40,357 nt of DNA from Eubacteriales bacterium (GTDB lineage: Bacteria > Bacillota > Clostridia > Saccharofermentanales > UBA5734), in assembly GCA_028695145.1 (NCBI GenBank), contig JAQVJP010000009.1, positions 1 to 40,357 on the forward strand, in the 5' to 3' direction. The notes below the pieces were generated by a model. The model did not search any database and had not been told where the DNA came from. It worked only from the letters and a program-made list of their open reading frames with translations. Numbering within the stretch: position 1 is the stretch's first letter; each line of letters begins with the position of its first letter. Positions 4,902 to 6,687 of the stretch are shown here, piece after piece. The translations under genes and the position numbers were made by a program.

Positions 4902-5381
4902 CTAAGATTCACCTCTTCGGCCGCTGTCTTTGAGACGGCGGTCGATTTCTCTTTTTGCCTGTTTCTGTGCTTCTGATTGACGTTTATCGTATTGCTTTTT
5001 ACCTCTTGCCAGACTAACTTCAATTTTTACTCTGCCATTTTTGAAATATACCTTTGTAGGTACAAGCGTAAGTCCCTGCTGTTTGATTATGCCATATAGT
5101 CTGTTAATCTCTCTTTTATGCATTAACAGACGTCTGCTTCTCAACGGGTCAGCATTGTAACGATTTCCCTGTTCATAATGACTGATATGCATACCATAAA
5201 CAAACAGCTCTCCACTGGTAATACCAGCATAGCTCTCTTTAAGATTCACCTTACCTTGCCTAATAGATTTAACTTCAGTGCCGGTTAGTTCAATTCCTGC
5301 CTCCATGCGTTCTTCTATATGGTAATCATGATAAGCTTTACGATTTTCTGCTACTAATTTAATCCCTTTATCTTGTGCCAT
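4902..5381 (-). CDS. smpB: SsrA-binding protein SmpB
   Basis: 159 residues, the normal length. SmpB binds tmRNA and delivers it to stalled ribosomes for trans-translation. The family blocks are clear: [20 protein letters not shown] near the N-terminus, [20 protein letters not shown] in the core, and the lysine/arginine-rich tail (about 128-159) that becomes helical in the decoding centre. No tmRNA gene is recognisable in the flanks. The ribosome site is weak (GAGAG). It lies downstream of tsaD in the same direction but is separated by a 271-base gap containing DnaA-box-like repeats, so it probably has its own promoter. Confidence 0.97.
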
Positions 5382-5436
5382 AAGTAATTACTCTCTTTCA
5401 ATTTGCCAATCTCATTCTCGCAAAATAATGTTGATA

Positions 5437-5460
5437 AGCCAGATCTATCTACTTCTGGCT
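5437..5460. repeat. 7-bp perfect inverted repeat between smpB and tsaD
   Basis: AGCCAGA (5437-5443) and TCTGGCT (5454-5460) form a perfect inverted repeat around a 10-base loop. No T-run follows on either strand, so it is not a standard intrinsic terminator. It lies next to the first DnaA-box-like sequence. Confidence 0.5.
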
Positions 5461-5466
5461 ATTTGT

Positions 5467-5599
5467 ATATTCACACAGTTATGCACACTATCCACATAGT
5501 TATCCACACACTTTTCACTATTAACATCCTTGTAACACCGATTTTACAAGGATTGTCGTGTTTTGTCGAATTTTGTCCACAATTACTACTTGTGAATAT
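5467..5599. promoter_or_regulatory. Cluster of DnaA-box-like sequences
   Basis: Compared with TTATNCACA, the gap between smpB and tsaD holds two perfect boxes: TTATGCACA (5479-5487) and TTATCCACA (5500-5508). It also has four with one mismatch: ATATTCACA (5467-5475), CTATCCACA (5488-5496), TTGTCCACA (5573-5581) and an inverted TGTGAATAT (5591-5599). The first four run in the same direction with starts 12, 9 and 12 bases apart. Six such sites in 133 bases is far above chance. No dnaA, dnaN or rpmH lies nearby, so a titration or regulatory cluster is more likely than the main origin. Confidence 0.6.
5526..5553. repeat. 10-bp perfect inverted repeat inside the DnaA-box region
   Basis: ATCCTTGTAA (5526-5535) and TTACAAGGAT (5544-5553) are exact reverse complements around an eight-base spacer. 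No T-run follows on either strand. It could be a protein-binding operator or a weak hairpin at the end of the tsaD transcript. Confidence 0.6.
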
Positions 5600-5652
5600 T
5601 CCACAGACAAGCCATGAATATTCATTATTTATGCATGTTAGCCAATGCAAGA

Positions 5653-6687
5653 TTACAACTCAAGGCTCGCAACAGCATTCAGGGACATATCCGATGTCCC
5701 TCTTTTTTTCCATGTATAATAGCCTGCAGAAGCTATCATAGCAGCGTTATCGGTACATAAATTAAGCGGAGGGAATGTCAACATCAACCCTCTGTCAGCC
5801 GATGCCAGCGTCATTGACCGCCGCAGTGCGCTGTTAGCGGAAACACCTCCAGCGAGTACCAATCGTTTAATATTTAGTTGGTCAGCGGCCTCCATTGTAT
5901 GTGATGTAAGAACATCGACAATCGCATGTTGGTAAGTCGCAGCAAAATCCTGCAGAGAAATAATATCCATCCACGATTTCTGTTCACGCTGAGCTTGTTG
6001 CTGTAATTTATTAAGCTGATTAAGAGCTGCCGTTTTCAGTCCGCTAAATGAAAAATCAAGACTATTATCAAAATGCGTTCTCGGTAGAGGAAAAGCATCA
6101 ACCCGCCCACCGATTGCTGCTTTATCCATCAGAGGCCCCCCGGGATAGCCAAGGCCAACAGCTCTCGACAGCTTATCAAAAGCCTCACCAGCCGCGTCAT
6201 CTCTTGTTCTTGCTATTACCTCATACTCATCGTAATCTCGGACAATCACAAGATGACTGTGAGCTCCCGACACTACAAGACATAGAAAAGGTGGTTCAAG
6301 TTCTTGATCAGCAAGATAATTCGCAGCAATATGTCCGGCAATATGCTGTACACCAACAAGCGGTTTACCACTGGCATAAGCCAGACCTTTTGCCGCTGAC
6401 AAGCCAACAAGCAGGGCACCAACAAGGCCTGGTCCATATGTAACAGCTACCGCGTCTATATCCGTTAGTTTAACTTTTGCTTGTTCAAGAGCCTGGTCTA
6501 TAACTGGAAGTATCGCTTCTACATGCATACGCGAGGCAATTTCAGGAACAACGCCGCCAAACTGACGATGAAAATCTGCTTGTGACGCAACTATATCAGA
6601 CAGAATATCTCTGCCGTTTGCAACAACAGCTGCTGCAGTTTCATCACATGATGATTCAATTCCAAGTATCAGTTTTCTGTCAGTCAT
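5653..6687 (-). CDS. tsaD: tRNA N6-adenosine threonylcarbamoyltransferase TsaD
   Basis: 344 residues of the Kae1/Qri7/TsaD family, which transfers threonylcarbamoyl to A37 of ANN-decoding tRNAs together with TsaB and TsaE. Visible landmarks are GIESSCDETAAAVV at the N-terminus, the metal-binding histidines in HIAGHIAAN, the DKLSRAVGLGYPGGP block and LAGGVSANSALR near the C-terminus. GGAG lies seven bases before the ATG. It follows uppP by 73 bases in the same direction. The last codons carry a hairpin plus T-run that would act as a terminator on the opposite strand. Confidence 0.97.
   Translation of the reverse strand: MTDRKLILGIESSCDETAAAVVANGRDILSDIVASQADFHRQFGGVVPEIASRMHVEAILPVIDQALEQAKVKLTDIDAVAVTYGPGLVGALLVGLSAAKGLAYASGKPLVGVQHIAGHIAANYLADQELEPPFLCLVVSGAHSHLVIVRDYDEYEVIARTRDDAAGEAFDKLSRAVGLGYPGGPLMDKAAIGGRVDAFPLPRTHFDNSLDFSFSGLKTAALNQLNKLQQQAQREQKSWMDIISLQDFAATYQHAIVDVLTSHTMEAADQLNIKRLVLAGGVSANSALRRSMTLASADRGLMLTFPPLNLCTDNAAMIASAGYYTWKKRGTSDMSLNAVASLEL
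5681..5709 (+). terminator. Intrinsic terminator on the plus strand, inside the tsaD 3' end
   Basis: AGGGACAT (5681-5688) and ATGTCCCT (5694-5701) make a perfect 8-bp stem with a five-base loop, followed after one C by seven T residues. This is a textbook Rho-independent terminator for plus-strand transcription, yet the only gene here is tsaD on the minus strand. It could end an RNA that starts in the 5382-5652 gap, or block antisense transcription into tsaD. Confidence 0.6.

Follow-up and report, generated by a model that had tools for sequence, protein, structure and literature searches.

The gap behind tsaD in the window (the whole stretch of 40,357 nucleotides analysed here) contains an array of DnaA boxes with a conserved geometry, and of the genomes sampled in the phylum, about 30-55% have a comparable array at this position. 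We think that it is probably an extra-oriC DnaA-binding cluster of the Bacillus subtilis kind, located in the same place as the gcp/ydiF cluster of that organism, which would hold DnaA as a polar oligomer and restrain initiation of replication.

The DnaA-box array in the tsaD-smpB gap

The array is contained in an intergenic gap of 271 bp and 34% GC (5382..5652), to which no strand is assigned. It lies between tsaD (gcp; tRNA threonylcarbamoyladenosine transferase; 5653..6687, minus strand; Pfam TsaD, 1.3e-93), the gene to which the array is linked, and smpB (4902..5381, minus strand; Pfam SmpB, 1e-61), the downstream neighbour of tsaD in the window's order of bacteria, where relatives keep this arrangement. 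Counting matches to the DnaA consensus TTATNCACA with at most one mismatch, six boxes are found at 5467-5599, two of them perfect and four with one mismatch, just as the initial annotation had described them. It had also read four boxes as head-to-tail, and the steps of 12, 9 and 12 bp between them were confirmed. All four are on the plus strand: core box d (TTATCCACA, 5500..5508), which is perfect and near-invariant over 48 loci; core box e (CTATCCACA, 5488..5496), with one mismatch and 12 bp from d; core box f (TTATGCACA, 5479..5487), perfect and abutting e at a 9-bp step; and a fourth box (ATATTCACA, 5467..5475), whose +33 position is occupied in only 3 of the 48 core loci. The boxes at 5500, 5488 and 5479 thus form a 0/+12/+21 core arrangement. 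An outlying box on the plus strand (TTGTCCACA, 5573..5581) is 73 bp off box d, about seven helical turns away, and a box on the minus strand (ATATTCACA, 5591..5599) is not conserved. A seventh box (TTATCAACA, 5429..5437, minus strand, one mismatch) had been overlooked at first reading.

The gap also contains the perfect 10-bp inverted repeat that had been reported (5526-5535 / 5544-5553), with an 8-bp loop and a weak terminator-like character. It is present in the window only and absent from all aligned relatives, and was rejected as part of the element for that reason. Within the 3' end of tsaD, the plus strand contains a strong terminator-like hairpin with a T-run (5681-5701); antisense transcripts would be its target. 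The tsaD-smpB gap gave no Rfam match as an RNA element.

Clusters were scored by giving 2 to a perfect box and 1 to a box with one mismatch, counted within 150 bp. The gap scores 8, while 20,000 base shuffles gave at most 5. Since the number of boxes with at most one mismatch in the whole window is only mildly enriched (62 against 51.5 expected), it is their clustering that is unusual. Chance was ruled out by these shuffles together with the background windows described below, and an artefact of AT-richness by the presence of the array in 12 of 18 loci of 45-50% GC.

Boxes are not abundant in the source genome either, a draft of 2.77 Mb in 223 contigs, because it contains 104 perfect boxes against 89 matches to the reversed pattern. 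The genome-wide cluster scan proposed in the initial annotation found pairs of perfect boxes at most 20 bp apart at three places only: the tsaD-smpB gap, C169:12979-13008 and C219:217-245. On contig C169 (G000; L007, 12979-13008), three perfect TTATCCACA boxes lie head-to-tail at steps of 9 and 12 bp, two of them abutting and the third 3 bp away. This second extra-oriC cluster of the source genome is placed between a proA-like and a nucleotidyltransferase-like gene. The C219 pair belongs to a group of eight DnaA boxes (L006, 165-281) that occupies the end of the contig, with boxes on both strands and three perfect ones among them, about 10 kb from dnaA and past parB. This group may be another cluster, or else a second portion of the origin.

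Occurrence of the array across the phylum

Most members of the window's family have a gap of about 170-390 bp between tsaD and smpB, in which boxes occupy the 0, +12 and +21 bp positions, each of them on the opposite strand to tsaD. The outlying box is 42-74 bp closer to tsaD than the core, recurring in relatives at 42-44, 52-55, 63 or 73-74 bp. The alignment of the smpB-tsaD gap that had been recommended gave 94% identity for the core boxes vs 39% for the non-box columns of the window row, and the three core boxes were the sole well-conserved stretch of the gap in the family alignment. Family f2 keeps tsaD-smpB with a gap of 5-61 bp and no boxes. Thus, the absence of the boxes under the same gene order, which the initial annotation had named as evidence against its reading, is observed in family f2, whereas most of the window's family has kept the array. 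One draft (G018) contains two copies of the tsaD array on different contigs, C198 and C13 (L039 and L049), a duplicate that is likely due to assembly redundancy or a mixed strain.

Further information was obtained from tsaD loci drawn from samples chosen regardless of the array, which was called when a score of at least 5 was reached within 600 bp downstream of tsaD. It is present in 14/48 relatives, in 20/68 genomes of the window's class and in 33/59 of the phylum. As controls, a score of at least 5 was reached in 0/175 cases by the last 600 bp of the tsaD body, in 1/171 by the region 700-1300 bp beyond the gene on its downstream side, and never by shuffles. In ten stretches of 20 kb analysed with a crude ORF caller, 8/9 recognised tsaD-adjacent gaps scored at least 5, against 1/85 other gaps; in the tenth stretch (L246, G134) the caller recognised no tsaD gap, and direct scoring of its tsaD array gave 8. 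In a second phylum, reached through a Legionella genome, the array was found in 0/30 genomes and no score exceeded 3. The position next to tsaD, proposed as conserved on the strength of B. subtilis, is therefore occupied far more widely than had been suggested, across the phylum. Nevertheless, the array is dispensable, because 48/68 genomes of the same class score below 5, some of them with the same gene order. At two loci (L216 and L217) the distance from tsaD to a downstream cluster exceeds 700 bp, as though an inserted gene had displaced the cluster.

The location of the array in the chromosome was analysed in 37 complete or near-complete genomes, for some of which the genome lengths are rounded. 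The distance from tsaD to dnaA is at most 25% of genome length in 20/24 genomes with the array vs 8/13 without it, a trend that is not significant in these 37 genomes (p = 0.07 and 0.23). In G092, the array is opposite the origin. The position counts fit an origin-proximal element, short of showing one.

Geometry of the array

Over 68 array loci, the boxes favour one strand with respect to tsaD by 366 to 62, and distances between boxes of the same strand peak at 9, 12, 21, 32, 43, 53, 64-65 and 74 bp, with the periodicity statistic maximal at 10.5-11 bp; these orientation and spacing counts are not independent events, because shared descent inflates them. The 0/+12/+21 three-box core was found in 48 loci, with TTATCCACA nearly always as the first box, and a second arrangement, 0/+9/+21, in 30 loci, mostly from the phylum-wide sample. 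The core boxes match the DnaA consensus TTATNCACA. Judged from the sequences, this conserved geometry argues that the complex itself may have been selected, beyond the number of boxes.

Likely function of the array

Gcp is TsaD, and B. subtilis ydiF is presumably of the ABC-F class. The DnaA-box cluster between both genes was reportedly described by Okumura et al. 2012. The array shares with this cluster the presence of many DnaA boxes immediately 3' of tsaD/gcp, a likeness of place and published description; as in B. subtilis, the neighbour in G110 is convergent, and it encodes an ABC-F-like ATPase. It differs in that the next gene in the window is the codirectional smpB, and in that 10 sites have been mapped in B. 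subtilis, compared to the seven boxes with at most one mismatch read from sequence alone in the tsaD-smpB gap. The initial annotation had mentioned a cluster by gcp, and it does exist: region 4 of the strongest in vitro DnaA-binding regions is listed as 'downstream of gcp; downstream of ydiF', with 10 sites and a Kd of 0.15 uM for ATP-DnaA (PMC4447404 Table 1). It is among the most ATP-DnaA-selective regions, 16-fold more DNA being recovered with ATP-DnaA than with ADP-DnaA at 55 nM (PMC4447404). Moreover, deleting six B. subtilis clusters together results in early initiation (PMC5295017; PMC13220808). The clusters at sda, ywlC, ywcI, yydA and trmE are likewise DnaA-box clusters in gaps, and are bound by DnaA (PMC4447404); in contrast to the array, none of them adjoins tsaD, and several regulate their own promoters. 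E. coli datA, DARS1 and DARS2 are also non-coding DnaA-box clusters outside oriC, which affect initiation (PMC13220808) and differ from the tsaD array in place.

By analogy with B. subtilis, we infer DnaA binding and an effect on initiation in the source organism. DnaA, preferably ATP-DnaA, would bind the head-to-tail boxes cooperatively. As these boxes point the same way and lie a whole number of helical turns apart, the protein would assemble along a single face of the DNA into one polar oligomer. The array would in this way keep DnaA from oriC and, when origin-proximal, would be duplicated soon after initiation. Holding DnaA and being duplicated early, it could leave less free DnaA for oriC and delay the next initiation.

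The initial annotation had also suggested that the array might link smpB expression to replication. With the array as operator, smpB, or the read-through from tsaD into it, would be repressed or activated by DnaA bound upstream, tying trans-translation to replication. In the window's order the array indeed sits between tsaD and the smpB start, and some B. subtilis clusters are sites at which DnaA regulates transcription (PMC4447404). However, we consider such an operator unlikely, as the array stays behind tsaD irrespective of the gene that comes after. According to Pfam, the genes next to tsaD encode, apart from SmpB, a CBS protein, IspD, a 2-hydroxyacid dehydrogenase, Lgt or 5-FTHF cyclo-ligase, and convergent neighbours encode an ABC-F-like ATPase, an SLT transglycosylase or a TsaB-like protein; MurC-like and radical-SAM-like proteins were recognised by eye. 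The array remains with tsaD before the CBS gene, ispD, lgt, murC and the genes for the dehydrogenase and the cyclo-ligase, and also before the convergent ABC-F, SLT and TsaB genes, where the gap should lack a promoter of the neighbour. Since the following genes vary, the array tracks tsaD and not smpB, and transcription of the neighbour is unlikely as its conserved function; the proposed link to smpB expression is not supported in that role, control of smpB being unlikely to be what has been conserved. Besides, smpB holds its place without boxes in family f2, and promoter-like sites in the gap are no commoner than in shuffles. An origin of replication, or part of one, is hardly credible, although the density of boxes resembles that of oriC and DnaA boxes matching the same consensus are found in the dnaA-dnaN gap of the source genome. 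dnaA (C219:9940-11286) shares a different contig with dnaN, recF, gyrB, parA and parB (names read from the sequences, with dnaA confirmed), so the array is separate from oriC. The initial annotation had thus rightly placed a cluster of several boxes in an intergenic gap outside oriC, with no origin-linked gene nearby. The array is beside neither dnaA nor its usual neighbours, and GC skew shows no change of sign at the site; a second origin was rejected on these grounds. Furthermore, no shared unwinding element is seen, because the family alignment conserves the boxes alone.

Binding of some other protein, or mere chance, is very improbable: the shuffles and background windows exclude chance, the core boxes follow the consensus for DnaA, and in B. 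subtilis it is DnaA that binds at this location (PMC4447404). A different question is whether the complex does more than hold DnaA. Were it an analogue in function of E. coli datA or DARS, at which DNA stimulates a change in the nucleotide state of DnaA with IHF or Fis, it would alter this state as well, by ATP hydrolysis or ADP release. The orientation and helical phasing maintained over the phylum hint at a specific oligomer and not a bare box count, and the ATP-DnaA selectivity of the B. subtilis gcp region would suit such an activity (PMC4447404). B. subtilis is without the datA and DARS loci, and no system of that type is known there, a question stated to be open (PMC13220808). Helical phasing would, however, serve plain cooperative binding equally well, and we regard the analogue as doubtful. 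It is tempting to go further and propose that the phylum has in the tsaD array an ancient element which assembles DnaA into a defined, helically phased oligomer and influences the nucleotide or oligomer state of the protein, in which case the array would be the missing Gram-positive counterpart of datA/DARS and not a sink alone; drawn from sequence comparison, this is a speculation with a small chance of being right.

We favour instead the cluster that holds DnaA and restrains initiation. Because the array recurs behind tsaD whatever gene follows, it looks like an old replication-control element and not like a switch for a neighbour. Both this kind of extra-oriC cluster and its place at gcp are already known in B. 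subtilis. Its phylum-wide occurrence, its independence of the neighbour and its helical architecture are new within the literature searched (DnaA with tsaD, gcp clusters in other Firmicutes), which contained no report of them and whose reach did not extend to Okumura 2012 and Ishikawa 2007. Hitherto, the six B. subtilis clusters looked local to one model organism. That many families keep one of them beside the same gene, in a constant orientation and at helical spacing, points to very long selection and to a geometry that matters, and what appeared to be a minor titration effect becomes a candidate general control site. From this, one can predict which genomes carry the array and which boxes should matter, and changes of spacing by half a helical turn are expected to destroy its function.

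Similar clusters elsewhere

The core triad was also searched genome-wide in 196 genomes, allowing up to three mismatches and using the reversed pattern as a control. Matches were found in 97/196 genomes, with few for the reversed control, and many of the strong ones lie directly behind tsaD. A core-triad match also recurs directly downstream of a gene for a dnaB-like replicative helicase, named by eye (L155, L158 and genomes of families f21 and f23). Finally, box clusters are present downstream of spo0A-like genes, again named by eye, at L150 1448-1553 and L152 1438-1574; spo0A is the master regulator of sporulation.
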